Below are positions 2,249 through 59,108 of a DNA stretch of 64,000 nt, piece by piece; position 1 is the first letter of the stretch; each line of letters begins with the position of its first letter. The DNA is from Aphrocallistes beatrix. Taxonomy: Eukaryota; Porifera; Hexactinellida; Sceptrulophora; Aphrocallistidae. Position numbers and translations under genes: made by a program. Under the pieces are notes generated by a model. That model saw only the letters and a program-made list of their open reading frames with translations. It was not told the origin of the DNA and did no database searches. Location: assembly GCA_963281255.1 (NCBI GenBank), contig OY725493.1, positions 1,921,550 through 1,985,549 on the forward strand. Reading direction: 5' to 3'.

Positions 2249-3466
2249 ATGGCTGAATCACGTCTCTACAGTATGGAGAGTCAACTTGATGAGATTGAGA
2301 CTCTAATTGAGCTTAAGTTTGGAAATATCATTAGGTGTGTCGAAGATAGAAAAATCGAATTGATTTCTAAGGTCAAAAATTATAAAATTGAATTGTCAAA
2401 CCAGAAATTTGAGAGATCAGAGACTTTGAGTGAAATAGGGAAATTGGAACATGCGCTTGGATCCATCAAATCGAATACAATGGAGGACATACAAAGCTCC
2501 CTCTCTAGGCAAATCAGTGTTAAAAGGTCAGAATTATCCTTGAAAAATCAAGGTTCAGTAAAGCTTGTTTGCGACACGTGCGACATTGAGCAATCTATTT
2601 CCCGTCTTGGAACGATTATAGAGGAAAAAATACCAAATTACGGACAAAATACTTGTCCCAACATCTCAATTGCGAAGAGAGGGCACCTTTCGAGCATGTT
2701 TAACAGACCGACTGGGGTGGCTATTGACGAAGAACAAAACCAGATTTTCGTCGTCGATTCAGGAAACCACCGGATCCAGACCTACTCGATGGAATGTGAG
2801 TTTATCCATGAATTTGACAGTAAGCGATTGAAAGACCCCTATGGGATAGCGATACATCATAATAATCTCTATGTTACTGACATTGGATTGCACTCCGTCC
2901 TCAAGTATGATTGTACCTCCACCCCCACCTTTGTCAAATTGATTTCTGATTCCGGGCCGACTCAAAATGGGCTCCGTAAACCACACGGCATTGCTGTGAA
3001 CACCTATACTGGCGACGTATATGTGACTGATGCTAAGAACAATTCAGTGGTAGTCTACTCTTCCGATCTCGAGTTCAAACACACGTTTGGAAGCGACTTC
3101 CTCCGCCATCCCGTGGACGTGAAGATACATGGAGACAACGTCTACGTGTTAGACAATAACAAGCCTTGCATGCACGTGTTCAACATGAGCGGGAGTCCTT
3201 GCCAGGATATCTACTTTCTGAACGGTTCCACGCCCATTGAAACTCCACTCTTCTTCAACATAGACTGTGCTGGTAATTTCCTGGTGAGCAACTGGAGACA
3301 GGATGCCGTGAACATTGTACGCTCTGAGGGAGATGTGAAATACACCATTGAGAGTAATGCCGAATCAGGAAGTGTATTGAAGACGCCTAGAGGTGTTGCA
3401 GTGACGAGGTCGGGTAGAGTGGTGATAGTATCCGACACTCCCAAGAACTGGATTCAAATATTTTGA
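2249..3466 (+). CDS. Coiled-coil / NHL-repeat protein, copy 2
   Basis: Intronless ORF of 405 residues beginning MAESRLYSMESQLDEIE. Residues about 5-130 are predicted coiled coil and residues about 145-405 are NHL propeller repeats (GVAIDEEQNQIFVVDSGNHR, GIAIHHNNLYVTD, GIAVNTYTGDVYVTD). The family resembles the C-terminal half of TRIM-NHL proteins but has no RING or B-box. It is the divergent neighbour of the 138-1331 gene. The N-terminal regions share layout and only moderate sequence similarity, whereas codons from about 273 to the end are identical, which points to gene conversion rather than simple recent duplication. Function unknown. Confidence 0.85.
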   Translation: MAESRLYSMESQLDEIETLIELKFGNIIRCVEDRKIELISKVKNYKIELSNQKFERSETLSEIGKLEHALGSIKSNTMEDIQSSLSRQISVKRSELSLKNQGSVKLVCDTCDIEQSISRLGTIIEEKIPNYGQNTCPNISIAKRGHLSSMFNRPTGVAIDEEQNQIFVVDSGNHRIQTYSMECEFIHEFDSKRLKDPYGIAIHHNNLYVTDIGLHSVLKYDCTSTPTFVKLISDSGPTQNGLRKPHGIAVNTYTGDVYVTDAKNNSVVVYSSDLEFKHTFGSDFLRHPVDVKIHGDNVYVLDNNKPCMHVFNMSGSPCQDIYFLNGSTPIETPLFFNIDCAGNFLVSNWRQDAVNIVRSEGDVKYTIESNAESGSVLKTPRGVAVTRSGRVVIVSDTPKNWIQIF

Positions 3467-4063: not shown

Positions 4064-5047
4064 CTAATAATTAATTTTAAAACCATTGTTTGTGACACAC
4101 AATTCGCAACGTCGCCTCATTGATTTATAGTAGGGCTTTAGAAACTCCGGGGTGATAGAATTCCAAATTTCTTCAAGGCGAGTTTTCATGTCACCAATTG
4201 TCTTTGGACGATTCCTTTTCAGTTGATTTTTTATCCATGCGAATAGGTTTTCGATGGGGTTTAAGTCTGGGCTCTGACTGGGCCAATCTAAGACATTATT
4301 AGGAATGTTGTCTGATATCCACTTCTTCGCCCACTTGCTGGTATGCTTGGGATCATTGTCCTGTATCAAGAACCACTTCTTATCGTGGTAAACCTTGGCG
4401 TTTTCTACCAAATGCCACTCTAATATCTTCACGTAGAAAGCGGCATCCAAATTATGACTAAAAATGCATAAGGGAAACGTCCCCATTGAGGAAAAGGCAG
4501 CCCACATGTGGACTTTACTGGAATGTTTAACAGTAGGAATAACCCGTTTTTGGTCCCCTTTAGTCCACATTCGTACTTTCCCCGCATGCAACCAAAAACT
4601 AGCCTCATCAGAGAATACTGCATGGCACCAATGCTTATTTTTGTTTCTTAGTGCCCACTCAATCCGTTTCAGCCTATTTTTCTCTGACAACATCGGAACC
4701 AAACTAGGATAAGGCTTCGAGTATTTCATCTTCTGAAGGGTCCTATGCACGGTGCTCTTGGACACACTGATACCATGTTTGGCTTCTATATCATTCGATA
4801 TTTCTCTGACTGGCTTTTGCAAATCAGTGTTTACATATTTAGCACATTTATACTTGACGCTCTGATAGAGTTTTGCTGGTCTTCCTGCTCCCTTTCTGTG
4901 TTCAACCGTACCAGTCGAATTGTGTCTCTTAAGAACCCTCCAAACTGTTGTCCGGTTGACACCGATAATGGAAGAAATTTCCTTGACACTGTGCTTCTCA
5001 CCTTCGGAAAGTGTAAGGATCTGTTTACGGATATCCTCTCTTGACAT
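4064..5047 (-). CDS. Tc1/mariner-family transposase, DD35E type
   Basis: 327-residue intact ORF. Residues about 1-50 hold a helix-turn-helix (VKEISSIIGVNRTTVWRVLK), followed by a GRPR-like AT-hook (GAGRPAK, about 53-59) and a second DNA-binding helical region (about 78-110). The DDE catalytic core is visible as D147 in FSDEASFWLHAG, D230 in LIQDNDPKHTS and E266 in SPDLNPIENLF. I count 35 residues between the second D and the E, against 34 in classic Tc1. The element would move by cut-and-paste at TA sites. The ATG is about 270 bp inside the right end, a normal spacing. There is no frameshift or internal stop. Confidence 0.93.
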   Translation of the reverse strand: MSREDIRKQILTLSEGEKHSVKEISSIIGVNRTTVWRVLKRHNSTGTVEHRKGAGRPAKLYQSVKYKCAKYVNTDLQKPVREISNDIEAKHGISVSKSTVHRTLQKMKYSKPYPSLVPMLSEKNRLKRIEWALRNKNKHWCHAVFSDEASFWLHAGKVRMWTKGDQKRVIPTVKHSSKVHMWAAFSSMGTFPLCIFSHNLDAAFYVKILEWHLVENAKVYHDKKWFLIQDNDPKHTSKWAKKWISDNIPNNVLDWPSQSPDLNPIENLFAWIKNQLKRNRPKTIGDMKTRLEEIWNSITPEFLKPYYKSMRRRCELCVTNNGFKINY

Positions 5048-33444: not shown

Positions 33445-36400
33445 CTAGAGGCGAGTTTCATGCTCATCCAAACTCTCATAGGGAGGAGGAGATTTAGATC
33501 TCGCACGTATATACTGCACATCTTCTGGAAATGAACTCACATAATGTGATTCTGGAATTTTTTCTTCTTTCTCTTCTTTCTCTTTTTCCGCAACATTGTC
33601 CTCGATTTTAACTCCTTCATATTTATGTTCAGAAGTTAGGGTTTCCGTTTTAGAAGTTGGCAAGGTTGTAGATTTAGTGTGATCCGCGCGTCGAACTCTA
33701 AACTTGAGAGCAGCTGGAGGGTTGGAAGAGCGAGTGGCAGTAGAAGAAGATTCTAGCTTGTTCACCGAATTCTTCTTCCTAGGATTACATCTACGAAGGT
33801 ACTCTAATATTTCAGGCGTACGCAGTGGGTAGAGTATAGCAAACAAAACGCCTTGTAGACCTAGTACGATGGTGAATATGAACGAAACAGCTGAGGTGGG
33901 AGTTGAGGCTGCTATTGAGAATAGCCAGGGTATGCCTAGGATAGGAGAGAGGGTGAAAGATGCGATTAGTACTCCCTTCATTTGTACGACCATTCCCCTG
34001 TTACCCTTGGATATCCTGAAGAGAACTACCGCTGTAATGATTAGGATGATCAAGTTAGTTAAAGTTATCACGATCATAGGGATGATGAAGGATAGATTTG
34101 CGAAATTCGGCTCTTTGCTGAACCAGCAGACCATTTCAGCGTCGTTTATGATGTATTCGCGTGTGATTGAAGGAACTATGATGATGAGAGGGAGCGGGAG
34201 GGTCCAGGCTAGAAGTACCAGGTAGTACCAGACACGTCTCTGACTGGACCAAGCGAATATTTTGATTAGTAGATATATGCCGATCGAGAGAGAAGATGTG
34301 AAGACTAACATCCAGAAATAGTACTGGATTATTAGAATGGCTGTACACCAACCTCTATGACCATATCCACGTGTGGAGGAAAGGAAGAAGATCAGAGCGA
34401 GCAATAGTGCAATAGCGAAATTCATATGTAAGATAGTAGCATCTTTCTGAAACAAGTTTTCCTGTTTGTTACGAGTTTTGAACCAAAGAAATAAGTAGGC
34501 AGCAATGGACAGCAGTAGGCAAATGATTGAAGCAGTACATGTGATGTAGGTTAGGACCTCCAGTGCCGTTATCTCTGCTTGAGAGAGGTTTTGCGTCGTC
34601 ACTGACACTAAAACCCCAAAATGAGTCAGATGGGTAGCGGAACATATGGCGGGACCAGGAGGGACATCATTTGGGTTGGACAGAGTGACGTAATCAAAGT
34701 TGAAACCTTGAGAAAGTATCTGTGAAGACACACAGAAGAGGTCTGATCTAAGCGTTGCATTGTTAACAATGGGCGTGTCGTTGAGAAGCGCAAATGTTAG
34801 ATTGATTGGGTCAGGGAGTTGGGTGATACGGACTCCACTTGACGTGAACAGATTGATGCTAGCTAACGAACTGCCGAGTGCATTACTAGCATCAGTGGTA
34901 TCAGGGGCGTTAGGATCTGTCGTATTCACTCTGATATTCATCAAGAGTGTCTGCACAGTAGGAAACAGAGACAAACTCACTGCTATGCTTTCACTGCTAG
35001 ACTGAAACACAGAAGGTGGAATGGACACAGAAGTCCGAGCTGCTATTAGTGCTGATGCACCTGGTCCCGCGGTCATGCTAAGGTTGGACCCCAGTACCAA
35101 TGGTTCTGTCGCGTCATTCACAAGTGTGACGATAAGAGCAGCAGCTGGTCGTGATATCTCCACCACTATAGTTTGATTCTCCTGAGCAACTGACCCAATC
35201 AGAATACCGATATCCTCAATAGCCTCGACAAGACTGATAATCTGCATCTCTGCTTCACTCTCGCTCACTGATTCAAATGCTGGACTGTTCTCTTCGCTCA
35301 GAATATTAGACGTAGCTTCAACCACATTATCCTGAACATTGGCTAAACTTTCTCTCAGAGCATTTGCGTCTTGGCTAAGGTTAGTTAACGACTGAGTAAT
35401 GACATTAACTGCTTGGGAAGCCACAAGAACTTCCCCGGGAAATAGAGGCCCATTACTTGTGTTTGTTGCCATTGCTAGCATATCTGATAAAATCTCACTT
35501 TCCATAGCTGTGAGAACTCGGGTCTCACTCATTGTATTTGTGGCCTGGATCGACACGAATATGATTCTCTGACAATCAGTGTAATCAACTGGTCCCCATT
35601 CACCTTCCTCACCGCATCCCCGTGTAACGTTTCCGAAGAGTTCTATGTTGATTAGGGAGCATGACACAACTGCTTCTGTTCCTAATTCCGTGACTGGAAA
35701 CGTGACAGGATCTCCGAGGGTATTAACTTCGGTTATAGAGGGACATGAGGGTGTTTCTACTGGAATGCTACAGCTAGCACCTTCAAAGCCGGAATTACAA
35801 GTACATTCAAATCCCACGGGAGGTAAGAGATTGGTGCAATTCCCATTGATACAGTTGCTGGCAATTTCGCATTCATTGATATCCTCACAGGTTCCGACAA
35901 CCATTACGAAACCTTCGAAACAAGTACATGTATAACTCCCTATAGTGTTCACACAGGCACCATTCGGACAAACAGTGGGAGTTAGGGAACATTCATCAAT
36001 ATCTACACAAGTAATTCCATCAAAACGAAAACCGTCGAAACAGTCACAATGATAGGAACTGTTAGGAAAGCCTTCCGAACACAGACCGAAACCACAGGGA
36101 TCAGTAGGGGAACAGAAAGAGAAGATGGATGACACTGACACTAAAATCCCAAAATGAGTCAGATGGGTAGCGTTACATATGGCGGGACCAGGAGGGACAT
36201 CGTTTGGGTTGGATAGAGTGACATTATCAAAAGTGAAACCTTGAGAAAGTATCTGTGAAGATATGCAATAGAGGTCTGTTCTAAGCGTTGCATTGTTGAT
36301 GATAAGCGTTTCATTGAGAAGCGTAAGTGTTATATTGATTGGCTCAGATGGTTGGGTGATACGGACTCCACTTGGTGTGACCAGATTGATGCTAACTAAC

Positions 36401-39400
36401 GGACTGCCTAGCGTATTACTAGCACCAGTGGTATCAGGGGCGTTAGGATCCGTCGTATTCACTCTGATATTCATCAAGAGTGTCGGCAACGTGGGAAACA
36501 GAGACACACTCACTGCTATGCTTTCACTGCTCGACTGAAACACAGAAGGTGGAATGGACACTGCTAGTGCTGATGCACCCGATCCCGCGGTCATGCTAAG
36601 GTTGGACCCCAGTACCAATGGTTCTGTCGCGTCATTCACAAGTGTGACGATAAGAGCAGCAGCTGGTTGTGATATCTCTCTAGTTTGATTCTCCTGAGCA
36701 ACTGACCCAATCAGAATGCCGATATCATCAATGGCCTCAATAAGACTGATAATCTGCATTTCTGCTTCACTCTCACTTACTGATTCAAATGCTCCAGTGT
36801 TCTCCTCGCTCAGAATATTAGACGTAGCTTCAAGCATATTATCCTGAACATTGGCCAAACTTTCTAACAGAGCATTTGCGTCTTGACTAAGGCTATTCAA
36901 CGACTGAGTAATGGCATTAACTGCTTGAGAAGCCACAAACACTTCCCCGGGAAATAAAGGTCCATTACTTGTGTTTGTTGCCATTACTAGCTCATCTGAT
37001 AATACCTCACTCTCCATAGCTGTGAGAACTCGGGTCTCACTCAGTGTCGTTGTGGCCTGGATCGACATGAACGTGATTCTCTGACAACCAGTGTAATCAA
37101 CTGGTTCCCAATCACCTTCCGCATTGCACAGTCGTGTAACGTTTCCGAAGAGTTCGATATTGATTAAAGAACATAGCACAGTTGCTACTGTTTCCAATTC
37201 CGTGACTGGAAACGTGACAGGATCTCCGAGGGTATTAACTTCGGTTATAGAGGGACATGAGGGTGTTTCTACTGGAATGCTACAGCTAGCACCTTCAAAG
37301 CCAGAATTACAAGTACATTCAAATCTCACGGGAGGTAGGAGATTGGTGCAATTCCCATTGATACAGTTACTGGCAATTTCGCATTCATTGATATCCTCAC
37401 AGGTTCCGACAACCATTACGAAACCTTCGAAACAAGTACATGTATAACTTCCTATAGTGTCCACACAGGCACCATTCGGACAAATAGTGGGAGTTATGGA
37501 GCATTCATTGATGTCCTCACACGTTCCGTTGACCATTGAGAAACCTTCGAAACAAGTGCATGTATAATTGCCTATAGTGTTCACACAGGCACCATTCGGA
37601 CAAATAGTGGGAGTTAGGGAGCATTCATTGATGTCCTCACACGTTCCGTTGACCATTGAGAAACCTTCGAAACAAGTACATGTATAATTGCCTATAGTGT
37701 TCACACAGTCACCATTCGGACAAATAGTGGGAGTTATGAAGCATTCATTGATGTCCTCACACGTTCCGTTGACCATTGAGAAACCTTCGAAACAAGTACA
37801 TGTATAATTGCCTATAGTGTTCACACAGTCACCATTCGGACAAATAGTGGGAGTTATGGAGCATTCATTGATGTCCTCACAGGTTCCGACAACCATTACG
37901 AAACCTTCGAAACAAGTACATGTATAATTGCCTATAGTGTTCACACAGGCACCATTCGGACAAATAGTGGGAGTTAGGGAGCATTCATTGATGTCCTCAC
38001 ACGTTCCGTTGACCATTGAGAAACCTTCGAAACAAGTGCATGTATAATTGCCTATAGTGTTCACACAGGCACCATTCGGACAAATAGTGGGAGTTATGGA
38101 GCATTCATTGATGTCCTCACACGTTCCGTTGACCATTGAGAAACCTTCGAAACAAGTACATGTATAATTGCCTATAGTGTTCACACAGTCACCATTCGGA
38201 CAAATAGTGGGAGTTATGAAGCATTCATTGATGTCCTCACACGTTCCGTTGACCATTGAGAAACCTTCGAAACAAGTACATGTATAATTGCCTATAGTGT
38301 TCACACAGTCACCATTCGGACAAATAGTGGGAGTTATGGAGCATTCATTGATGTCCTCACACGTTCCGTTGACCATTGAGAAACCTTCGAAACAAGTGCA
38401 TGTATAATTGCCTATAGTGTTCACACAGTCACCATTCGGACAAATAGTGGGAGTTATGGAGCATTCATTGATGTCCTCACACGTTCCGTTGACCATTGAG
38501 AAACCTTCGAAACAAGTACATGTATAATTGCCTATAGTGTTCACACAGTCACCATTCGGACAAATAGTGGGAGTTATGGAGCATTCATTGATGTCCTCAC
38601 ACGTTCCGTTGACCATTGAGAAACCTTCGAAACAAGTACATGTATAACTCCCTATAGTGTTCACACAGGCACCATTCGGACAAACAGTGGGAGTTAGGGA
38701 ACATTCATCAATATCTACACAAGTAATTCCATCAAAAAGAAAACTGTCGAAACAGTCACAATGATAGGAACTGTTAGGAAAACCTTCCGAACACAGACCG
38801 AAACCACACGGATCAGTAGGGGAACAGAAAGAGGTAGTGAAAATAAAATCAACCTGATTAAAGCTCCTAACACATCCTTCTGCCCCTTGCTGTATGCCTG
38901 ACGCATTTGATGTTAAGGAGTATATCACAAGGTACTGTGTCAGTGGTAGAAGTCCCTGTGCAGTGTGATTTCCCGCTGAACATGCAACGGGTATAACTGT
39001 AGACGAACTATTAAGATCTTCTACGATGAAGTTTAACTCCGCATTGCTACAGTACGAGGCTTGTGTGTTCCAGGTTATAGTGATTGATGCTGGTGCTGCC
39101 TCATGAGTTAAGTTTAGAGAAGACAAACTTTGAGAAGCACCGACATAGAATGAACTCTTAAGATCATACGTACGGAGACCGTCACTATATACTGCTTCTA
39201 TATAGAAGTCGTAATCCAGTAGCGTGAGGAGAGGTAGTTCCCCAGTTAGCGTAGCGTACTCTCTGCAGAAGTAAAAACGATTAGATGGCGGACAAAGGTC
39301 ATTCGAGGGGTCGCGTATAGTTAGAGGAGATACTGTAGGTCCATTTTGATTTGAGCAAGAAGACTCAATCAATGTGAATGATGTACTCCTTGGGTATGCG

Positions 39401-42400
39401 TAAATGACATAGGAATCTAGCCTTTGTGGTAGATTGAAGGGCGGTGGAGGAACCCAAGAAACTTGATAGGTATTCGAATTGAGAGTAGATGGCACTGTTA
39501 CATTTGTTATGACTGGTACCGCGCTAATTGGAAGGTAGGAGACTTGAGGTGAAAAGAGCACTGCAATGTTTGGATCAGTCGTCTGATTGAAACCAGGAAA
39601 TAGAACACTTGTAAACGGAAATATGAACAGAACTATAGCTGCTGGAGATTGATCAAATGCATTTACAAGATCAACAATCTGCTCGCTTATGTTGCATGAA
39701 TTAACGGGAAAATCGCCAATGAACTGAGGGGGCTGGCTGTAAGAAAATACATTTCTAACTCCAGGTACGCAAATACTATTGTTATAGAAGTAAGAATAAA
39801 CATCGTTGAAACCAGAAACTATTATTTCATCCCGAATGAGGGATGTTGGATCATAAAATCCGATTTGTGAAATTGCTGTTTGACCATTCACTTCATAGGC
39901 GATTCCCAGTGCATATCCGTAGCCTGGTATAACTGAAATGATTGCACTCGCGAATTCAGTTGTAACCTTGGAGCAGTTTAGGGTGTCACTCGAATTGAGG
40001 CACAATTCGAAAAATTCTGTAGATGGATTTCCTGGACCAAAATTTCCTCCTTCTTGTCCGAAATTAGTTAAAGATACGAAGGTTATAGTAAGGTTAGTAG
40101 GGTTGAGAACATCTCCGATCACATCTTGGGTTGAGGAATACAACTCTGGGTATGCAAGCAAAGTGTACGTTGTCACTCCTGCCACAGGTTCCCATGTCAC
40201 TCGAATTCTTGACAAGTCTAATATTTCGGTTGTTCTGAGCATGGGCGATGTCGAGATCGGAATAAATAGAAAATAAATGACAGGACAAATCTGGAAGAAA
40301 TTAGCAGTTGAATTATGAAACACACTTCCTTGAATCGTATAAAAAGTATCATAATCGAGATTTGTGATGACGTAGGATCCTATATCACATGGCATCGTGG
40401 CGTCTTCATTTATTATTCCTCCAGAACCTGATAACCCTCTTGGAACTTCGCCATTGAAGTTATTCCCGAACCATGAAATACTAATGAAAGAATTTGGAGG
40501 GCAATAAAATCCAACATTCCATTCCACCTTGATGCTATTTGGTGCGATGAGGGTTGTGTTTGTTTGGGTTTCACTGATTACATGAGTAAACTGGAAATCT
40601 TGTATGGAATAACTATTGAAACTCCCTGGAAAGAAATCAGTTTCAGTGCCATTGATGACGACCCTTATCAACGAGCTAAATCCTGGAATGACCTTAACAA
40701 CGATATTCCGCATGTTATCTACAGATGTACATAAGTAATTGTTGTTGTTTTCGCATGTAAGATTTGCTTGATCTGAGAAAGTTGAATTGAATCTAAAGTC
40801 CAGCAGATAAATTGGCAATTCTGAGGTTCCAGACGGACATGATTCAGTTGCATTTTCAAGAAAGTTTAACTGTAGAGCCTGGACTGGAATCGTTAGGATA
40901 TCTCCAGCGTTTGAAAATGTATCATCTATGAAGATACTGAGTTGTATGGTCTCATAGTCTAAATACTGGAACTCTTCGATATGCGGGAATTGTATAGTAT
41001 TTTCGACATTAATGTCCTGTATTGCTGATTCATAGCCCGAGAAGCAGAGTGGACCACTTGGAGTAGAGACTTCTGTCACAAAATTCGAGAGAAAAAAAGA
41101 GAAAGGAAAAGACGTTGGGTTGATTAATGCTCTTCCTGGTGAACATGGAGCTATGGTTGAATTTGTACGCAGCACATCGGTGTCTATAAATTGTTTCAAA
41201 TGAATAAATATGAACGATTGTGGCTCGCATATACTTATATCCCATTCGACCGCTTGATAGCCGGCTGTTCCTTGACCCGGGAACGCAAAATAATTCAAAA
41301 TGTTTATCGGATAGCTCCTTACTTTTTCGATGAAGTTTGTTCCTTGTTGGCGTAACACAGCCTCAATTATGATTCCCGATGAGTGCGTGGACCCAATATT
41401 CAATTCGACTGATAATGAAAACTCTTGTATCTCAGCTACCACAGAACTACAGTTGTAGGGTAATGTCAGTCCAGGTGGAGGGGGACAAGTGAGGCCGAAA
41501 TCTTGATTTATGGTAACCGCATACTTGTAGTATTCAGTTGGTAAGAAAGTGAAGTCATCAATTGTTGTCTGTGAATCAATATTGGAGCAAGAACCGCCAT
41601 TGAATTGTAATGTGTACGCTGGGAACAGATAAATATTGTAGAAATCAATTATATAACCATTGCTTGGTATCAAGGGAGCAAAATCTACCGATATCTGACC
41701 CGGGAAACGAGTTCGATCATGAAAAGTGATTACTGGCCTATCGACCCCAGGTGTGAGTGGGGAATTGATATTTTCAAAAACGCCTTGCAATCTCACAGAA
41801 GCACAATTATTAGCTGGAATATTAATTTGAGATGTGTTGATGCGAATTTCTGGGTATGCGATAAAACTTCTGTAACTAGCATATATATATACGTACTGTT
41901 GTAAACACGTCGTTCTATCTAGGTTAATGTATGAGTCGATTAGTTGGGTCGGAAATCTATCTTCGCCATAAATAATTGTAATTTGGTTCTGGTTACAAAA
42001 ACTGGAATCAGCTACCCAAGTCACCAATATACGATTTCCTACTGAACTAAGTTGTGACTCGTTTCCAGGTCCACTTGTGGGAAATTCAGAACTTGGAATT
42101 TCAAAGTTAAAATTCAATAGATTCGAGTAGAATTCTGGCGCCTGTATGAATTCGTCTGTCTGGTTGAACTGGATTTGAGGGTAGATAGTGATAATCACGT
42201 AGTCATGGCTATATCCTGGGAAGATGTCAGTTAAGAAATTCAGTTCACTTGTTGAAACACACTTATAGTCTGTTGCGTTGGTAGTGCATGGAGGGAGATC
42301 TTGCAGCGAGATATTAGTCCACTGTGTCGAACGCTCTTTCAATTGAAAAATATAGGCCAAATGAAAGTCACAGTTCGCATTGTAAGTATATATAAAGGTG

Positions 42401-43317
42401 GGAAACACGTAGACCAAGTAACTGAGCACTTCGCCAGCGCGTGCAGCAGGTGGGTTAATCGTGACGTTAGTTTGTGTGGAGTTGTGAGGAAAGTTAGATA
42501 GAGAGGCAGTGTAAAATGAAGGGTCGAAACTAGTGAATGTAGCTGTTTCAGTGATTGCAGTCGAGATTATAAATGAATTCCCGAATATATCACTAACTAA
42601 AAGTCCTATTCCAAATTCTAATGAGCAAACAATTTGGCATATAGCGCCTACTATTGGTAACTCATATACCTCAAGTGTGAAATTGTAGTTTCTAGCGATA
42701 CCCATAACATTAGAATTGACTAGCGTGGAGAGTGGTATGTTACTGACTGTTGCCTGGGAACCATGCAAGGTCAATCTACTGATATCCAGTGTACTTAGGT
42801 CTATTAATTCTGTAAATTGAATGGATATGAAGCCTTGTATTAGATTCACTGTGACAGGTGATAGCTGTAAGGAGGGAGGACTCGTGTCTGGGATCACTGA
42901 CATTGAATGCACTGTTTGTGGACCAAAATCGACTGTAAAATTAGGAGGAACAGAGAGATATGTCGAGTTGCTGTCAACTAGACAGGGCATATTATTATTT
43001 GCATTCTCACCTATTGTTGTAATAATCTGATCACTGTCTGATTGAGATAAAAATAACGAAAAGCTATCAGAAATTTCGAAAAAATCAGTCGTGACAACTA
43101 AGTTATTAAATGTACATACAGTATTGAGATCCGGCGAATTTGAAAGCGAAATGTTGTTTAGATATAGGAAAAACATAGAAACCGGTGAGCTGAGAATTAA
43201 GTCGATGTCTAGCATTCCATTCGAAAATACAAGAGTTGCGTTTGTAATGTTCACAGCTTCAGCTCTCCCTGGGCAGTAGCAGCACAGGATAAGAGCAAGG
43301 GCGAGGATCTTCAACAT
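33445..43317 (-). CDS. Giant adhesion GPCR with EGF array and two GAIN/GPS cassettes
   Basis: Uninterrupted 3290-codon ORF. A signal peptide (MLKILALALILCCYC) is followed by about 1450 residues built from five repeating modules of about 245 residues, each with a W-x(n)-C block such as VEWNVGFYCPPNSF and ITWNTQASYC. An EGF starts at about 1497, and 11 near-identical 40-residue calcium-binding EGFs (DINEC...TCTCFEGF) span about 1540-1979. One more EGF, a HormR-like domain, and a first GAIN ending in a GPS (ATHLTHFGILV, about 2387) follow. EGFs, HormR and GAIN then recur and end in a second GPS (ATHLTHFGVLV, about 2897), 7TM (about 2911-3176, with LGIPWLFSIAA in TM6 and LQGVLFAILYPLRTPEI in TM7) and a 114-residue tail. 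Family knowledge: adhesion GPCRs self-cleave at HL/T and signal by a tethered agonist. Two GPS sites in one chain are highly unusual. Confidence 0.93.
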   Translation of the reverse strand: MLKILALALILCCYCPGRAEAVNITNATLVFSNGMLDIDLILSSPVSMFFLYLNNISLSNSPDLNTVCTFNNLVVTTDFFEISDSFSLFLSQSDSDQIITTIGENANNNMPCLVDSNSTYLSVPPNFTVDFGPQTVHSMSVIPDTSPPSLQLSPVTVNLIQGFISIQFTELIDLSTLDISRLTLHGSQATVSNIPLSTLVNSNVMGIARNYNFTLEVYELPIVGAICQIVCSLEFGIGLLVSDIFGNSFIISTAITETATFTSFDPSFYTASLSNFPHNSTQTNVTINPPAARAGEVLSYLVYVFPTFIYTYNANCDFHLAYIFQLKERSTQWTNISLQDLPPCTTNATDYKCVSTSELNFLTDIFPGYSHDYVIITIYPQIQFNQTDEFIQAPEFYSNLLNFNFEIPSSEFPTSGPGNESQLSSVGNRILVTWVADSSFCNQNQITIIYGEDRFPTQLIDSYINLDRTTCLQQYVYIYASYRSFIAYPEIRINTSQINIPANNCASVRLQGVFENINSPLTPGVDRPVITFHDRTRFPGQISVDFAPLIPSNGYIIDFYNIYLFPAYTLQFNGGSCSNIDSQTTIDDFTFLPTEYYKYAVTINQDFGLTCPPPPGLTLPYNCSSVVAEIQEFSLSVELNIGSTHSSGIIIEAVLRQQGTNFIEKVRSYPINILNYFAFPGQGTAGYQAVEWDISICEPQSFIFIHLKQFIDTDVLRTNSTIAPCSPGRALINPTSFPFSFFLSNFVTEVSTPSGPLCFSGYESAIQDINVENTIQFPHIEEFQYLDYETIQLSIFIDDTFSNAGDILTIPVQALQLNFLENATESCPSGTSELPIYLLDFRFNSTFSDQANLTCENNNNYLCTSVDNMRNIVVKVIPGFSSLIRVVINGTETDFFPGSFNSYSIQDFQFTHVISETQTNTTLIAPNSIKVEWNVGFYCPPNSFISISWFGNNFNGEVPRGLSGSGGIINEDATMPCDIGSYVITNLDYDTFYTIQGSVFHNSTANFFQICPVIYFLFIPISTSPMLRTTEILDLSRIRVTWEPVAGVTTYTLLAYPELYSSTQDVIGDVLNPTNLTITFVSLTNFGQEGGNFGPGNPSTEFFELCLNSSDTLNCSKVTTEFASAIISVIPGYGYALGIAYEVNGQTAISQIGFYDPTSLIRDEIIVSGFNDVYSYFYNNSICVPGVRNVFSYSQPPQFIGDFPVNSCNISEQIVDLVNAFDQSPAAIVLFIFPFTSVLFPGFNQTTDPNIAVLFSPQVSYLPISAVPVITNVTVPSTLNSNTYQVSWVPPPPFNLPQRLDSYVIYAYPRSTSFTLIESSCSNQNGPTVSPLTIRDPSNDLCPPSNRFYFCREYATLTGELPLLTLLDYDFYIEAVYSDGLRTYDLKSSFYVGASQSLSSLNLTHEAAPASITITWNTQASYCSNAELNFIVEDLNSSSTVIPVACSAGNHTAQGLLPLTQYLVIYSLTSNASGIQQGAEGCVRSFNQVDFIFTTSFCSPTDPCGFGLCSEGFPNSSYHCDCFDSFLFDGITCVDIDECSLTPTVCPNGACVNTIGSYTCTCFEGFSMVNGTCEDINECSITPTICPNGDCVNTIGNYTCTCFEGFSMVNGTCEDINECSITPTICPNGDCVNTIGNYTCTCFEGFSMVNGTCEDINECSITPTICPNGDCVNTIGNYTCTCFEGFSMVNGTCEDINECFITPTICPNGDCVNTIGNYTCTCFEGFSMVNGTCEDINECSITPTICPNGACVNTIGNYTCTCFEGFSMVNGTCEDINECSLTPTICPNGACVNTIGNYTCTCFEGFVMVVGTCEDINECSITPTICPNGDCVNTIGNYTCTCFEGFSMVNGTCEDINECFITPTICPNGDCVNTIGNYTCTCFEGFSMVNGTCEDINECSLTPTICPNGACVNTIGNYTCTCFEGFSMVNGTCEDINECSITPTICPNGACVDTIGSYTCTCFEGFVMVVGTCEDINECEIASNCINGNCTNLLPPVRFECTCNSGFEGASCSIPVETPSCPSITEVNTLGDPVTFPVTELETVATVLCSLINIELFGNVTRLCNAEGDWEPVDYTGCQRITFMSIQATTTLSETRVLTAMESEVLSDELVMATNTSNGPLFPGEVFVASQAVNAITQSLNSLSQDANALLESLANVQDNMLEATSNILSEENTGAFESVSESEAEMQIISLIEAIDDIGILIGSVAQENQTREISQPAAALIVTLVNDATEPLVLGSNLSMTAGSGASALAVSIPPSVFQSSSESIAVSVSLFPTLPTLLMNIRVNTTDPNAPDTTGASNTLGSPLVSINLVTPSGVRITQPSEPINITLTLLNETLIINNATLRTDLYCISSQILSQGFTFDNVTLSNPNDVPPGPAICNATHLTHFGILVSVSSIFSFCSPTDPCGFGLCSEGFPNSSYHCDCFDGFRFDGITCVDIDECSLTPTVCPNGACVNTIGSYTCTCFEGFVMVVGTCEDINECEIASNCINGNCTNLLPPVGFECTCNSGFEGASCSIPVETPSCPSITEVNTLGDPVTFPVTELGTEAVVSCSLINIELFGNVTRGCGEEGEWGPVDYTDCQRIIFVSIQATNTMSETRVLTAMESEILSDMLAMATNTSNGPLFPGEVLVASQAVNVITQSLTNLSQDANALRESLANVQDNVVEATSNILSEENSPAFESVSESEAEMQIISLVEAIEDIGILIGSVAQENQTIVVEISRPAAALIVTLVNDATEPLVLGSNLSMTAGPGASALIAARTSVSIPPSVFQSSSESIAVSLSLFPTVQTLLMNIRVNTTDPNAPDTTDASNALGSSLASINLFTSSGVRITQLPDPINLTFALLNDTPIVNNATLRSDLFCVSSQILSQGFNFDYVTLSNPNDVPPGPAICSATHLTHFGVLVSVTTQNLSQAEITALEVLTYITCTASIICLLLSIAAYLFLWFKTRNKQENLFQKDATILHMNFAIALLLALIFFLSSTRGYGHRGWCTAILIIQYYFWMLVFTSSLSIGIYLLIKIFAWSSQRRVWYYLVLLAWTLPLPLIIIVPSITREYIINDAEMVCWFSKEPNFANLSFIIPMIVITLTNLIILIITAVVLFRISKGNRGMVVQMKGVLIASFTLSPILGIPWLFSIAASTPTSAVSFIFTIVLGLQGVLFAILYPLRTPEILEYLRRCNPRKKNSVNKLESSSTATRSSNPPAALKFRVRRADHTKSTTLPTSKTETLTSEHKYEGVKIEDNVAEKEKEEKEEKIPESHYVSSFPEDVQYIRARSKSPPPYESLDEHETRL
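37381..38700 (-). repeat. Coding minisatellite: 11 x 120-bp calcium-binding EGF units
   Basis: Eleven consecutive 120-bp units keep frame exactly and differ by only a few substitutions, at recurring positions (S/F, I/L and D/A substitutions, and SMVNG versus VMVVG). Units 4-7 (37861-38340) and 8-11 (37381-37860) repeat the same order of variants, so a 480-bp block was duplicated on top of the 120-bp unit. The partner cassette downstream has a single unit. Confidence 0.95.
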
Positions 43318-51746: not shown

Positions 51747-54700
51747 ATGAAAGAAACTACAGTGTTAATTTCATGCCTGCTATTCTCAATATTTTATTTT
51801 AATGGCTCGTTAGCACAATCACCTTCCATTGTCAGTGCAAACAGTTCATTGTCTTTCGCTCAACAAAACATCCTCATCACCGTTACGTTTAACCAACAGG
51901 TTAGCTCAAACGATTTTGTGTTGAATAATTTTCTTAATCCAATCCTGATTGATGATGACCTCTTACCTCTAACACTCTCAAACTCGAGCACCTTCACATC
52001 TCCAAATTGTACTTTTTTGGTTTTTGCAGATTTTATCTCAAACAGGCTCTCTACCACTCACAACTTTACGCTTGGCTTATTATATACAAATGAAATAAAA
52101 TTGGGAATCGGTAATAATCCAGATATAGAATGTCTATCGGGCATTAACTCCACCTACTTGGAACTCTTCGTCCGAGACAGTGATTTTCTGCCTTCTTCAT
52201 TAATCTCCCAACTCAATGTTATTCCTGACTCGACTCCTCCGCAAGTCAGTTTTTTTACTATTAATTTTCAGTTGGGAGTGATTGTTATAAATTTCTTGGA
52301 ACCTATTATTGTTGAAACACTGAATATTTCAGGGTTTTTTATCCAAAATATCAATTCCCAAACCCAAGTCTCGAGTTTATTTCCATTGTCTAGTCTTACG
52401 AATTCAGATGTAAACAGTGATGATAATTCTTTGTCCTCTCTTAACGCTGTTATATTTCTCGAGATATTTGAGCTCTCAATGTTAAGCAGTCTCTGCCCGA
52501 GCAACGCTTCTTGTATTGTTCAGCTTCCCTCAGATGTCAGCATTGTGAGTGATGTGTTTGGAAATGTCCTCGTTGAACCGATTCCTAGCGCAATCCGAGT
52601 TGGCCTAGCCAATCTATTTGTTGAGTCTGAATTCACATCTTCATTACTTAGAGCGATCCCCGTCAGCAGTAACCAAGTAATCCTATCCTTTTCTATTCCA
52701 GCCAACCTTCGTCCTTCCGATAGAGTTTCTTATAGGATATTTGTATTTCCAGAGGCAGCGAATTATTATCGAGGAAGCTGCGATTTCGTATATGGTTATC
52801 GGAACCAGTTAGATAGGGAAAAACGCTCTATCTCCCCTTCATTGGTCTGTCAGAATTCTACAGAATATTCCTGTTACATTACGGAGGATAGCAGTCTGGT
52901 TGTCAGCATTACCGAAGGATTCGATACCATCTTCCTTCTTGATACAGTGTATCCGAACATCCAATTCAACGCCTCTGGCAATAATTTCATCCTATCGACT
53001 GGTGACTTTTATAAACTCTTGCTTGAAATTGAGTTTTTTCAAGACTTAGGATCTCAACCAACGGAAATTCCTCTCATCGATAATTTAACTGATCCTTTTC
53101 CACTCAAGAATCGCGCTCTCTTGGAATGGAAAGTTCCCGATCTAAGTTTCTGTGACGAGCATAGAATTACGATTCGTTACCCTGATCCTATCTCCGCAAT
53201 TGATCTTGATGATGAGACTGTATGTGGATCTCAGTTTGTGTATGTTTATCTGCCGGATGGTGGGAGCTGTCGCACCGGCAAATGTATAGACGTTGAAGTA
53301 CGCATCATTTCGCCCAGCGTCCTTCTACCTAATGGTACTTGTGCCTACGCTACCATTCCATTATTTGGTTCTCTTTTTGTTGAATTTCAGGAATTCGAAA
53401 ATCGTCCTACACGTGGGATTTCTCTGAATTTTTTTAATAATATGGATGGAGTTGATATTCCAGTTGTTGAATCGATTACAACATATGCAGGACTCTCAGA
53501 GGTCCTTAGCCATCTTATAAGCTGGTCTTACTTCCCACTATCTCCCTTTGATTACTTCAATGTATACGTCTTTCCAGTATATGGACTGCAATATGACGGA
53601 GGTTCTTGCGATAATATTGATTTTCAAACTTCCAATTCTGAGTTCAGCTTCTATCCGACAGAATACTATAAATATGGCGTGAGTATCCCTAACCAGGCAG
53701 ATTTCAACCTATCCTGTCCAACCAATTCTGAATTGTCGCTTCCTTATGAGTGCTATTCAGCCTTCAGTTACGATCGTCAGATTTCTGTAAATATAAGCAC
53801 GCAATTTGCTGTCGGTGTGATAGTAGAAGCTGTCTTCTTCACAGCCGGGAATGGGGCGAGAATAAAGGTGCAAAGTTACCCCGCCATCTACTCGGCATGG
53901 TCTATTGACCGGGATAGCACACAGGGCAGGACGTATCAACGGATCTCTTGGGATACCAATCTATGCCTTGACGCAATGTCCTCCGTTTTATTTATGGTCT
54001 CTGAATTGGAACTTGACAGTCGTCGTTCCATAGGTTCTACCGATCCCACCTCTTTCCATGGAAACTATCTGATTCCTTGTACGAATACGCCAGCATTGAT
54101 CACAGAATTACCAGCATTCTTTGCAGGTACCGGATACATATTTAACGAGCTACAGATAGGAAATAAGGATTTGTGCTTGAGTGGGTTAGAATCAATTCAG
54201 GTTGACAGATTTTCTTTTACACAAGATGCTGCAGCAGTTGATTTCAAATATACAAATTACTTCACACTTTCATTGAGCATTCCTATCGACGGTGAATTTA
54301 ATCAACCAGCATCTGTTCAAATAATCCCATCGACTGTCAACAGTGTCTCGATTAATGCCTCTCAATTTGACATCTGTCCCATCGTAGTCAATGGTCAATT
54401 GCCGGCTGAGTACCTTATCACATCTTTTCAAGTCAATGTGAGTAATTTCTTTTCCCCAATTTGTGAGAACACTACTTCTTCCACGTGCGTGTTCGTTGAA
54501 AATACATCCAATCTAACGTTTAATGTTACTCCGGGTTTTAACAATCAGATCTTTGTCGGCACAACAGGACAAATTTTGAGTCTTATCCCTGGGTCCACGG
54601 ATCCCATGTTTCGCATCCCTACGATCAGCGACCCTGATCTATTAGAAAGTCAGAAACTTCTGTACACTAATGTACGCCTTGTTTCTAATAACAGCATTCT

Positions 54701-57700
54701 TGTGGAATGGGACACTGATTTTTACTGTCCACCCGGGTCATATATGAATATCTATTTCGAAATGGAAAATGATCGACGAGAAGTCATCTTAGAAGATGAA
54801 GAGAATATTCCCTGTCAAGTTGGACGTTACATGTTGGAAAATACAAAGTACTCTGCTGTTTATTCCTTTTATGGAACTGTATTTTTCAATTCCACAACGA
54901 TTTTTCCCAGCTGTCCAACCTTAAGTATACTGTTTGATTTCGTAAAGACTCCAGAATTTATTCAAATTATCGAACTGATAGATTTCGAAAATGTCTATGT
55001 CCAGTGGGACTCTGTTGCAGGAGTTTCCTCCTACACGCTACTAGCAGTTCCCAAAAGTATTATGTTTTTCCAGGATCCTATTGGGTCAGTTTACTCCTCG
55101 AGTACATTTGAACAATTTTTTGACTACACTTCATCTGTCCCTATTGATGTTATTTTTCAGATGTGTCTCAATTCAAGTGAAGATCTCACATGTTCCAAAC
55201 TCACCACATCTAACACTAACGCGATCATATCCATACTCCCTGGTTATGCATACAGTTTAGCTGTGGCTTATGAGCTCCAAAATAATATTACTATCCAGCC
55301 TGAATCGTTTTACGATCCAGAAAAGGATTTAGAAGCAAGGACTACTATATCTGAATTTAACAATATTCTTCTGTACAATTACAGCGCTGAAATATGCACG
55401 AATAATGTGAGAACAGTGTTTTTTTATTCTACTTTTAGAAATAATCCGCTCCTCTTCAGAGTAGATTCTTGTCAGAATAGCACGAGTGAACTGCCAGTAA
55501 CTGATTTCCCAAACACCACGCCACTAGTGCTATTTATATTTCCCTATCAGGAAGTCAGGTACCCAGGAACCCTTTCATTCCTAATTCCACCAGCAAGCGT
55601 CGCTATTCTGACTGAGGGAATATTTTCCCGCCTTCCCGGAGCTGCAGCCCCTGTACTGACTACCGTTCAGCCCCCAGTTGAATCTAGCTCCAACCTCTAC
55701 CAGGCCCAATGGACTGATTCCCCAAGTTTCCCTATCGCACAGGAGTTTGAGTCTTATACGCTGTATGCATTACCTTTTTCAAGGAATTTTACGTTGAGCG
55801 GAGAAGCATGTCCACAGTTCATTTATCCAGGATGTTTCTTCGGCTCCCCTATAACTCCCCTTCAAGAACGTAGTATTATATTCGACCTGTGTCCTTATTC
55901 CGGAAATTTCTATTTCTGTCAGGAATTTTCTACTGCCATTGAGGGGCAAATAGCTCTATTTCCACTGTTGGATTATTCATTCTTCGTTGAGTCTCAGTTT
56001 GACGGAGGACTCAGGGCGTACTTCATTGAGGACGGCATAAATGTGGTTGCTACTCAGGACCTTATGGAGTCATTGAACCTAACTTACCAGGTGACCACTG
56101 TCTCTATCGAGATACAGTGGGATACTTCTGCAGCTTTCTGTGCAGACTCTACGCTTGCATTTCTTTATCAGACGCAAATCAATCCGAGCATATCAGTTGC
56201 TTGCACAGTTGGAAGTTACTCGATCGAACCACTTCAACCCAACACTGAATACGAGATCCTCCTCTACTTCGACTACGACCCAACACGTTTGTACCCAGGT
56301 CCAGATCAGTGCATTCGAAATCGCCCTATCATTGCTTTCAATCCTTTCCCAGTCACGTTTTCAGTCTGTTTAACACAACAACCTTGTGATCCATTTGGAA
56401 TGTGTTCCGAAGGATTTTCTAACAATTCCTTCCACTGCGACTGTTTGACTGGGTATGAGTTCAATGGAAACACCTGTGTCGACATAAACGAGTGTAGTGC
56501 GGATATCAACCCTTGTAACAATGGCGCCTGTGCTAATACGGAAGGTAGTTTCACTTGCACATGTTATGAAGGGTTCGAGCTAGTTAACAATCAATGTGTG
56601 GATATAAATGAATGCGATATTCCGGATAGCTGCATCAATGGCGAATGCACGAACCTCCTACCCCCTGATAACTACCGTTGTGAGTGCCAGCCTCTGTTCG
56701 ACGGTAGAACCTGTAACATTTCCGTTGAAACTCCCACTTGTCCTTCCTTCACTGAAGCCAACGAATTCGGCGATGACGTAACATTCCCCGCGACACCGAG
56801 AGGGGAAGATGCTCTGGTGAGCTGTTCACAGTTGGACATTACTCTGTTCGGTAGCATTTCTAAACGATGTAACAACGAACTTGAATATGAAGCAACTAAT
56901 TTTAATAACTGTGTGAGCGCTACCTTTTTGTCCCTTCAAGTATCCAGAACACAAAATGGGGGACTTTTTTCTTCTGAAGAGAGTATCGCACAATCTCTGC
57001 AACTTGCCTCTGCTACTGACGACGACAATCGCGTTCTGTTTCCGGGTGAGATTAATGAGGCAGTAGCAGGATTAGAAGCAATAACCAATTCATTAACGAA
57101 CTTGACAGGTGCGGTCCTAACAAGCACCCTCGCTCAGGTACAAGATAACGTAGTTACCATAGCCTCGAACATTTTCAGGGGTGAGAACATGGCTGTGATT
57201 TTAGCTACACCTCAAACACAAACACAATCTTTAGCATCAGTTGTTGTGTTGAGTGTTGAGACACTTGGGACTTTAATTGGCTCTGTACTTCCAGTCAACA
57301 CCAGTTTGGTAATTGATTCGACCAACGCTGCACTAGTGGTTGCTGTAGTTAGCGATCCCGATGAACCGCTTGTAATTGGACCTAACTCTAACATTCGGGG
57401 TAACCAGTCTGCATTGGTCCGGGCACAAGCCTCGGTATCTATTCCTGCCTCAGTTATCCGAGCAAACGATATCGGGAATGGGGTTGAAGTGAGTTTTTCT
57501 GTCTTCCCTAATCTAGCGGAGTTACTAGGAGAAGTGAGTGCAAATGTTTCTCTCACAGCAAGAGAGACGAGTATTAACGATACGCTGGGTACTGGAATCT
57601 CCAATTTGAACATTTTTACAAGAGGTGGCGGTCGAGTGGAACAACTCAATGAAGATATTCTTCTGACATTCGGTTTAATATTTGATCCACCCATCCTAGC

Positions 57701-59108
57701 GAATAGCATCAAATTTCGCATTGTATATTCTTGTGTCTCTTCCCGGTTCTTAGATGAAGGATGGGTAGGGAGCGGGACCACTCTCTCCAATGAGGAGGAG
57801 GTACCTCCAGGACCTGCTGAATGCTCTGTTTCTCACCTTACTAACTTCGCTGTTTTAGTTTCTGCACGTTCGTTGAACTTTACTCCAGGAGAGACGCTTG
57901 CTCTTAAGATCCTCTCTTACGTCACCGGGATCCTCTCCATTCTTTTCCTACTCGTTTCTATTGCAGCCTACATCATTCTCTGGTGGAGAACGCGTAAGCA
58001 AAGCACAAGTCTGTTCAAGAAAGATGCTACGATTCTTCACTTTAATTTCGCCGTGGCTCTTTTCCTCGCGTTGATATTTTTTATGGCCTCGGCTGGGGCA
58101 TATGATAATAGAACGGCTTGTCTGGCAATGACAATCATACAATACTACTTCTGGCTCTCAGTGTTCACTGCTTCTCTCTCCATCGGAATTTATCTTCTGA
58201 TTAAAATTACCGCTTGGAACGTTGAACGTCGGCTCTGGCATTTCTTAGTTATTTTTAGTTGGTCCATTCCAGTTCCATTTTTGATAATTACACCTTCTCT
58301 GACTCACAGTTACATAATCGACGATGTGGATGAGATTTGCTGGCTGAGTAATGAGCCTAAGTATGCAAGTTTGGCCTTTATAATGCCAATGGTTGTAATC
58401 ACAAGTATCAACTTGATATTCCTAATAATAACATCAGTAATTCTTTTCAGAGCATCAAAAGGAAACAAAAGTATTTATACCCAAGTCCGTAGTGTGCTGT
58501 TTGCTACCCTCCTCTTAGCACCTTTGCTCGGGATTCCCTGGCTATTCTCTATCGTTGCTTCTCTACCCACTCCTGCTACTGCTTTCATTTTTGCCATCGT
58601 GCTAGGTCTGCAAGGCGTGTTGTTCTCAATCCTCTATCCACTCCGCACTCCAGAAATTATCAAGTATGTTTTCCTTTGGAAGCCCACTCATGGCGAATCT
58701 TTGCAAAAATACAGTAGCTCGAATACGGGCACTAAAACAACTGGTCCGTCCGCCTTAAAATTCCGCATCAATCGTAAACCAGACAATACTAACAGTGGGA
58801 ATGTTGAGAATGTTTATTCGCAAGCGAAACCCAGCATTGTGGTTGAGGCTAGCGAAGCACCGAACGAACTACTCGATATCAAACTGGAGCCTGTCACCAT
58901 TGAGAGTTCGATACGCTCGATTTCAATGCGTCCAAACCTGAAAGACACCGAAATGCAAAAGCTGGATACTACAACTGCTGTGTTTGAAAAGCAGATTTCT
59001 GAGCCTCACTATACAAAGTCTATCCCGGCTGATAATGACGAGTTCCAGGGATCTTTGTCTCTAAAGTTGCCCTACCATAGCCTCTCTATTGATGAGGCTG
59101 ACCAATAA
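51747..59108 (+). CDS. Giant adhesion GPCR, paralogue with single GAIN/GPS
   Basis: Uninterrupted 2453-codon ORF, paralogous over its length to the minus-strand receptor. A signal peptide (MKETTVLISCLLFSIFYFNG) is followed by five modules of about 245-270 residues with blocks such as LLEWKVPDLSFC, VEWDTDFYCPPGSYMN and IQWDTSAAFC. Three EGFs lie at about 1540-1660 (DINEC twice, calcium-binding type), then a HormR-like domain (about 1664-1725) and GAIN with GPS at about 2030 (CSVSHLTNFAVLV; HL/T cleavage residues present). 7TM is at about 2050-2310 (HFNFAVALFLALIFFMA, LLGIPWLFSIVA, LQGVLFSILYPLRTPEI), and a 140-residue tail follows. The EGF-HormR-GAIN cassette is single, against duplicated in the paralogue. 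Predicted surface receptor of the B2/adhesion family; ligand unknown. Confidence 0.93.
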   Translation: MKETTVLISCLLFSIFYFNGSLAQSPSIVSANSSLSFAQQNILITVTFNQQVSSNDFVLNNFLNPILIDDDLLPLTLSNSSTFTSPNCTFLVFADFISNRLSTTHNFTLGLLYTNEIKLGIGNNPDIECLSGINSTYLELFVRDSDFLPSSLISQLNVIPDSTPPQVSFFTINFQLGVIVINFLEPIIVETLNISGFFIQNINSQTQVSSLFPLSSLTNSDVNSDDNSLSSLNAVIFLEIFELSMLSSLCPSNASCIVQLPSDVSIVSDVFGNVLVEPIPSAIRVGLANLFVESEFTSSLLRAIPVSSNQVILSFSIPANLRPSDRVSYRIFVFPEAANYYRGSCDFVYGYRNQLDREKRSISPSLVCQNSTEYSCYITEDSSLVVSITEGFDTIFLLDTVYPNIQFNASGNNFILSTGDFYKLLLEIEFFQDLGSQPTEIPLIDNLTDPFPLKNRALLEWKVPDLSFCDEHRITIRYPDPISAIDLDDETVCGSQFVYVYLPDGGSCRTGKCIDVEVRIISPSVLLPNGTCAYATIPLFGSLFVEFQEFENRPTRGISLNFFNNMDGVDIPVVESITTYAGLSEVLSHLISWSYFPLSPFDYFNVYVFPVYGLQYDGGSCDNIDFQTSNSEFSFYPTEYYKYGVSIPNQADFNLSCPTNSELSLPYECYSAFSYDRQISVNISTQFAVGVIVEAVFFTAGNGARIKVQSYPAIYSAWSIDRDSTQGRTYQRISWDTNLCLDAMSSVLFMVSELELDSRRSIGSTDPTSFHGNYLIPCTNTPALITELPAFFAGTGYIFNELQIGNKDLCLSGLESIQVDRFSFTQDAAAVDFKYTNYFTLSLSIPIDGEFNQPASVQIIPSTVNSVSINASQFDICPIVVNGQLPAEYLITSFQVNVSNFFSPICENTTSSTCVFVENTSNLTFNVTPGFNNQIFVGTTGQILSLIPGSTDPMFRIPTISDPDLLESQKLLYTNVRLVSNNSILVEWDTDFYCPPGSYMNIYFEMENDRREVILEDEENIPCQVGRYMLENTKYSAVYSFYGTVFFNSTTIFPSCPTLSILFDFVKTPEFIQIIELIDFENVYVQWDSVAGVSSYTLLAVPKSIMFFQDPIGSVYSSSTFEQFFDYTSSVPIDVIFQMCLNSSEDLTCSKLTTSNTNAIISILPGYAYSLAVAYELQNNITIQPESFYDPEKDLEARTTISEFNNILLYNYSAEICTNNVRTVFFYSTFRNNPLLFRVDSCQNSTSELPVTDFPNTTPLVLFIFPYQEVRYPGTLSFLIPPASVAILTEGIFSRLPGAAAPVLTTVQPPVESSSNLYQAQWTDSPSFPIAQEFESYTLYALPFSRNFTLSGEACPQFIYPGCFFGSPITPLQERSIIFDLCPYSGNFYFCQEFSTAIEGQIALFPLLDYSFFVESQFDGGLRAYFIEDGINVVATQDLMESLNLTYQVTTVSIEIQWDTSAAFCADSTLAFLYQTQINPSISVACTVGSYSIEPLQPNTEYEILLYFDYDPTRLYPGPDQCIRNRPIIAFNPFPVTFSVCLTQQPCDPFGMCSEGFSNNSFHCDCLTGYEFNGNTCVDINECSADINPCNNGACANTEGSFTCTCYEGFELVNNQCVDINECDIPDSCINGECTNLLPPDNYRCECQPLFDGRTCNISVETPTCPSFTEANEFGDDVTFPATPRGEDALVSCSQLDITLFGSISKRCNNELEYEATNFNNCVSATFLSLQVSRTQNGGLFSSEESIAQSLQLASATDDDNRVLFPGEINEAVAGLEAITNSLTNLTGAVLTSTLAQVQDNVVTIASNIFRGENMAVILATPQTQTQSLASVVVLSVETLGTLIGSVLPVNTSLVIDSTNAALVVAVVSDPDEPLVIGPNSNIRGNQSALVRAQASVSIPASVIRANDIGNGVEVSFSVFPNLAELLGEVSANVSLTARETSINDTLGTGISNLNIFTRGGGRVEQLNEDILLTFGLIFDPPILANSIKFRIVYSCVSSRFLDEGWVGSGTTLSNEEEVPPGPAECSVSHLTNFAVLVSARSLNFTPGETLALKILSYVTGILSILFLLVSIAAYIILWWRTRKQSTSLFKKDATILHFNFAVALFLALIFFMASAGAYDNRTACLAMTIIQYYFWLSVFTASLSIGIYLLIKITAWNVERRLWHFLVIFSWSIPVPFLIITPSLTHSYIIDDVDEICWLSNEPKYASLAFIMPMVVITSINLIFLIITSVILFRASKGNKSIYTQVRSVLFATLLLAPLLGIPWLFSIVASLPTPATAFIFAIVLGLQGVLFSILYPLRTPEIIKYVFLWKPTHGESLQKYSSSNTGTKTTGPSALKFRINRKPDNTNSGNVENVYSQAKPSIVVEASEAPNELLDIKLEPVTIESSIRSISMRPNLKDTEMQKLDTTTAVFEKQISEPHYTKSIPADNDEFQGSLSLKLPYHSLSIDEADQ

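Follow-up and report, generated by a model that had tools for sequence, protein, structure and literature searches.

The stretch of DNA analysed here (the window, 64,000 nucleotides) comes from the hexactinellid sponge Aphrocallistes beatrix, contig OY725493.1, positions 1,921,550 to 1,985,549. It holds a gene for an adhesion G protein-coupled receptor (GPCR), which we call gene A (protein P0001), with two GAIN domains in a single chain. The initial annotation had claimed one 3290-codon open reading frame at this place, and our reading recovers exactly that frame, free of internal stops; it lies on the minus strand, which had not been stated. The encoded protein starts with a leader and a long N-terminal region, followed by an EGF array, a HormR domain and a first GAIN domain (GAIN1, or copy 1) ending in HL/T at residues 2385-2387, the slash marking the cleavage position of the GPS. 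An EGF block, a second HormR domain and a second GAIN domain (GAIN2, or copy 2) ending in HL/T at residues 2896-2898 come next, and a seven-transmembrane (7TM) domain and a tail complete the chain. Both sites agree with the GPS positions first proposed near residues 2387 and 2897, with the HL/T residues kept. GAIN2 adjoins the first transmembrane helix, as the 7TM match starts at residue 2918, 20 residues past T2898. GAIN1 is not juxtamembrane; the chain leaves it through THFGILVSVSSIFSF and enters the next EGF domains at a cysteine.

Gene A displays the main testable features of an adhesion GPCR, namely a 7tm_2 domain, a GAIN domain, a GPS tripeptide and a GAIN domain beside the first transmembrane helix. 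GAIN proteins outside the adhesion GPCRs are not known to be 7tm_2 receptors. The GAIN domain and its self-cleavage do occur in such other proteins (PMC13197933).

We examined the support for each cassette by profile searches. The Pfam GAIN model PF16489, whose cut-off is 26.5 bits, matches both copies, at 45.6 bits (copy 1) and 42.3 bits (copy 2) as separate fragments and at 47.2 and 43.8 bits, respectively, in the genome scan. We also built a profile from 14 further GAIN cassettes of the same genome, excluding copies 1 and 2 as well as the paralogues B and C described below. It picks up residues 1997-2395 at 97.1 bits and residues 2501-2905 at 109.6 bits, in both cases along about 390 of its 399 positions. 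The best domain reported among 400 shuffled sequences reached 4.5 bits, ruling out chance similarity to GAIN. Matches to the HRM model PF02793 stay under its cut-off of 26.2 bits in both copies (16.9 and 20.5 bits), and the Pfam GPS model PF01825 gives no match at E<=1 on P0001. Since neither model passes, the GPS of gene A is to be called atypical: both copies carry two GPS cysteines instead of four and no GPS tryptophan, and read CxAxHL/T where CxCxHL/T is usual. Several single-GAIN receptors of this genome are missing the second GPS cysteine too, so its loss does not set the double receptor apart. Four GPS cysteines or a PF01825 match are an optional refinement that is not demanded of every adhesion GPCR, and the GPS tripeptide H-L/I-S/T is present in both copies, as HLT. 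Moreover, wherever a GPS residue is conserved among the cassettes of this genome and present in copy 2, copy 1 has it as well.

Structure prediction was carried out on copy 1 of gene A and returned a HormR-GAIN fold, so the question of whether the first copy would fold as GAIN, raised with the initial annotation, has a positive answer at the level of prediction. The predicted model matches HormR-GAIN structures also in the HormR fold ahead of GAIN. In a Foldseek search, adhesion GPCRs account for 9 of the 11 matches at E<=0.001, and ranks 10 and 11 are axonemal microtubule entries. A phmmer search with copy 1 alone retrieved no PDB sequence at E<=10; a family profile of 18 rows, made mostly of other receptors, does reach GAIN structures (6vhh, E 8.7e-32).

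Table 1. Features of gene A and its neighbouring paralogue in the window.
Feature	Position	Strand	Basis
Single-frame adhesion GPCR, gene A (P0001), 3290 aa	33445..43317	-	open reading frame
Long N-terminal ectodomain behind hydrophobic leader, aa 27-1495	38833..43239	-	leader judged by eye
EGF region, block 1, aa 1496-2018	37264..38832	-	domain search
HormR copy 1, aa 2019-2080	37078..37263	-	HRM below Pfam cut-off; match to HormR-GAIN structures
GAIN copy 1, aa 2081-2395	36133..37077	-	Pfam, own-genome profile, predicted fold
GPS 1, H2385-L2386/T2387	36157..36165	-	motif reading
Last GAIN1 strand / tethered-agonist-like THFGILVSVS, via SIFSF into EGF cysteine	36130..36159	-	
EGF block 2, aa 2400-2522, linking GAIN1 and HormR2	35752..36120	-	
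HormR copy 2, aa 2523-2584	35566..35751	-	HRM 20.5 bits, below cut-off
GAIN copy 2, juxtamembrane, aa 2585-2906	34600..35565	-	Pfam, own-genome profile
GPS 2, H2896-L2897/T2898	34624..34632	-	motif reading
7TM domain, 7tm_2, aa 2918-3158	33844..34566	-	PF00002, 65.8 bits
Paralogue B, 2453 aa: EGF, single GAIN cassette, 7TM; outgroup and single-GAIN comparison	51747..59108	+	

The N-terminal ectodomain gave a weak fn3 match under the Pfam cut-off (20.3 vs 25 bits). Within EGF block 1 lies a tandem array (37381-38708) of 11.1 units of 120 bp with 96% matches. These units are near-identical, and their copy number in the assembly may be uncertain.

We compared gene A with two paralogues, B in the window and C (L026) on the same contig about 0.18 Mb apart. 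Like gene A, both have a long ectodomain, EGF domains, a GAIN cassette and a 7TM domain; unlike gene A, each has a single cassette. Identity between copies 1 and 2 of gene A is 89.9% at the DNA level and 84.9% at the protein level, whereas copy 2 and paralogue C reach 97.6% and 96.6%, respectively, and the 7TM of gene A is 98.2% identical in DNA to that of C. From the start of EGF block 2 through the end of the 7TM, gene A matches C at 95.5%; ahead of the EGF array, the two share a single match of 126 bases at 71%. Copy 2 likewise pairs with C in the cassette tree (support 92/85, just under the tool's star), in which 5 of 15 forks stay open and a long-branch warning concerns other parts of the tree. 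We infer from these comparisons that the second cassette and the 7TM are a C-type block that came to lie after a GAIN1 from a different lineage, either through fusion or through duplication and later gene conversion; conversion with C after a duplication is possible. The second cassette had been described as an internal copy of the first. This is not the best reading, as cassette 2 and the 7TM are nearer to C than to cassette 1.

The genome encodes a second double-GAIN adhesion GPCR, which is from another receptor family and only a distant relative of gene A. This protein, P0003, is read from the plus strand of locus L025 (2094-5348; G000:C17:797093-800347). Its two GPS matches (C17:798092 and 799184) lie with a 7TM in one frame of 1088 codons and are the sole such pair among the 91 PF01825 matches found in the genome at E<=1. 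The PF16489 scan gave 10 matches at E<=1, with gene A as its sole same-frame pair. Both scans were six-frame and scored the best candidates, and they miss atypical GPS sites, those of gene A included, so two double-GAIN receptors is a lower bound; in the same genome, 7tm_2 matches at E<=0.001 occur at 134 places, and many of these represent halves of split genes. The copies of P0003 have no Pfam GAIN (PF16489) match. Their assignment comes from the GPS model, from alignment and from an own-family profile that matches the GAIN domains of ADGRG3, E5 and L3 (E 1.4e-5 to 9e-5); the 14-cassette profile includes the cassettes of P0003 itself, which makes its P0003 scores circular.

P0003 is a mosaic of paralogues from its neighbourhood. 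Its cassettes are 68.9% identical to each other in DNA; cassette 1 comes closest to L047 and L048, cassette 2 for the most part to L049, and the 7TM and tail for the most part to L045, all four being single-GPS receptors in the frames read. In the tree its two cassettes group with different paralogues (support 97/100 and 95/99, both starred). The genes of this family on C17 have two apparent exons, as judged by eye: a Ser/Thr-rich stalk exon with a conserved GTAAGT donor and, in phase, a GAIN-7TM exon preceded by an ATAG acceptor. A probable upstream Ser/Thr-rich stalk exon of P0003 lies within the open frame C17:794024-795593. Judged by eye, the first base of cassette 2 is homologous to the base that opens the GAIN-7TM exon in the paralogues (L025 near 3213-3240), and the junction resembles a join made at a splice acceptor. 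A simple tandem duplication within the gene is disfavoured as the only origin, as copy 2 of gene A groups with C and the cassettes of P0003 group with different paralogues. Judged from these relationships, double-GAIN receptors arose at least twice in this genome, probably by recombination. The double-cassette adhesion GPCR first proposed for this locus is the right reading, and is strengthened by the predicted fold of copy 1 and by the second double-GAIN receptor from another family.

We favour the view that gene A encodes a chimeric adhesion GPCR, in which an ordinary juxtamembrane GAIN2 is combined with an upstream GAIN1 that serves as a second break point in series, and give it a probability of roughly 0.55. 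We infer that either GPS could be cleaved; cutting at both would give a three-piece receptor. Recombination or gene conversion among receptor paralogues would have made the join just past the last GAIN strand (~36120-36130). GAIN1 and GAIN2 would both fold and self-cleave in the endoplasmic reticulum (ER), and the three pieces would stay together non-covalently: residues 1-2386, an internal piece of 511 residues (2387-2897) and a C-terminal piece of 393 residues (2898-3290). GAIN2 and the peptide starting at T2898 would provide ordinary signalling. Force applied to the distal part would act on GAIN1 and GAIN2 one after the other in the chain, and either could yield; dissociation of isolated GAIN-Stachel complexes takes 95-160 pN (PMC13197933). 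Were GAIN1 to yield first, the outer ligand-binding arm would be shed with GAIN2 and its agonist still capped, and were GAIN2 to yield first, the ordinary agonist would be freed. GAIN1 would act as a force limiter or as an outer module that can detach, and would not be a second agonist for the same 7TM.

A possible but less probable alternative is that gene A is a young chimera without new function, in which GAIN1 is a folded spacer that is poorly cut or not cut at all, only GAIN2 is processed and the receptor behaves like its single-GAIN paralogues. Several observations favour this alternative or otherwise weigh against GAIN1 as a working break point. The copy 1 cassette has 377 residues vs 384 in copy 2, owing to two in-frame deletions, of 2 and 5. 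It has also changed faster: relative-rate counts give 20 unique changes in copy 1 vs 7 in copy 2 (outgroup B, p=0.019) and 20 vs 8 in paralogue C (p=0.036), and GAIN1 of gene A may, on these counts, be under weaker or different selection. The description of two complete cassettes is thus slightly too strong for copy 1, although both GAIN domains are found and both HL/T sites are intact. The missing second GPS cysteine means that one of two conserved disulfides is probably gone from both copies (PMC13197933). Cleavage efficiency is affected by 7TM formation and by the distance of GAIN from the ER membrane (PMC13197933), and GAIN1 lies far from the membrane, a reason to expect weaker cutting there. 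The model of copy 1 was computed from the 18-row alignment of mostly other receptors and may hide mild damage from the deletions. An open frame through GAIN1 is no proof that GAIN1 works, because a stop or frameshift there would kill the whole receptor including the 7TM. Finally, the split from the nearest paralogues is recent, with a synonymous divergence (dS) of 0.055 between copy 2 and C and of 0.073-0.077 between the cassettes of P0003 and their nearest paralogues over the last two thirds, and this low divergence suggests that the chimeras are young.

Against a mere spacer, copy 1 retains HL/T, its final strand and both of the GPS cysteines that are left, and is still predicted to fold as GAIN. 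Likewise, copy 1 of P0003 keeps HL/T and shows no acceleration (12 vs 10 unique changes, p=0.83). The rate of P0003 copy 2 depends on the outgroup, with 17 vs 7 changes (p=0.064) using one and 15 vs 13 (p=0.85) using another, and its ratio of nonsynonymous to synonymous divergence (dN/dS) against L049 is 0.75, indicating weak constraint. Between copies 1 and 2 of gene A dN/dS is 0.44, over a span that includes time before the chimera; we rejected this ratio as functional proof, as much of the divergence between the copies may predate the chimera.

An assembly artefact through a misjoin of paralogue or haplotype copies, or alternative splicing that drops one cassette from the real protein, appears improbable. 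The adjoining EGF array, with its 11 near-identical 120-bp units, is hard to assemble, and genomic DNA alone is compatible with removal of a cassette by splicing. On the other hand, a difference at about 10% of bases shows that the copies do not represent a single locus entered twice, no stop interrupts the frame and the junction falls between domains, and a query that crosses the junction has a single full-length match in the assembly. The architecture is also seen on a different contig, where the cassettes are 69% alike, and such repeated origin argues against an assembly slip. Least probable is that THFGILVSVS is itself an agonist, an opened GAIN1 freeing the N-terminus of the internal fragment to activate its own or a neighbouring receptor: the core of this peptide differs from that of copy 2 by one V to I change, but it lies 511 residues before the C-terminal fragment with EGF domains directly after it, whereas the known agonist adjoins the first transmembrane helix (PMC13197933), and canonical action on its own 7TM is unlikely.

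In the known HormR-GAIN-7TM adhesion GPCRs, latrophilins/ADGRL, BAI/ADGRB and CELSR, the GAIN domain sits just outside the membrane (PMC13197933); gene A adds an upstream GAIN beyond EGF domains and, compared with these families, has one of two GPS cysteine pairs left. The additional, non-juxtamembrane GAIN is what differs in gene A. We found no description of an adhesion GPCR with two GAIN domains in the open-access literature searched, which leaves uncontradicted the earlier remark that no such family is described, and nothing in the passages and the section consulted of the 2026 adhesion GPCR review (PMC13197933) contradicts it either. A paper on "two GPS" (PMC5548486) concerns two GPS mutants of dCIRL and not two GPS sites in one receptor, and a further title retrieved deals with a potato peptide. 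Predicted double-GAIN proteins may already be listed unnoticed in domain databases.

The field has yet to settle whether adhesion GPCRs signal through mechanical release of the fragment that GAIN holds. A natural two-GAIN receptor with close single-GAIN relatives would offer a test of which break point yields first, and could show if self-cleavage takes place in a membrane-distant GAIN and if an upstream peptide can signal. Our data also suggest recombination as a route to double-GAIN receptors in receptor gene families whose coding exons are long, a route taken at least twice in this genome. It is a tentative and still doubtful extension that double-GAIN adhesion GPCRs form a real, recurrent class of three-piece receptors with force-graded, two-stage release, the outer GAIN shedding the arm without firing and the inner one firing.

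Five TGF-beta matches in the genome agree with its animal origin; a Wnt search gave no match, and neither did its control. Other receptor-like loci were seen in the genome. A dense cluster at G000:C4:4.94-5.99 Mb holds dozens of 7tm_2 matches, many split in two near domain position 105/109. L036 (C17:1025000-1031500) and L037 (C17:808000-815000) encode 7tm_2 receptors, each about 1670 codons long and with very long repeats rich in Ser, Thr and Pro; their 7TM is near that of the P0003 family but comes without the GAIN, and no GPS lies in their frames among the matches listed. GPS matches at G000:C1:759611, C11:114206 and C1:8577845 lie in frames of 464-2134 codons with no same-frame 7tm_2 among the matches listed, and are perhaps polycystin-like or spliced genes. 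An isolated fragment at G000:C1:10170906-10171098, in an open frame of 97 codons, has 66% protein identity to 65 residues of the HormR region and is a relic or an exon. Elsewhere in the window, a minus-strand open reading frame at 4064-5047 encodes Tc-type transposase helix-turn-helix and DDE_3 domains, and two NHL-repeat frames (138-1331, minus strand; 2249-3466, plus strand) are placed divergently.
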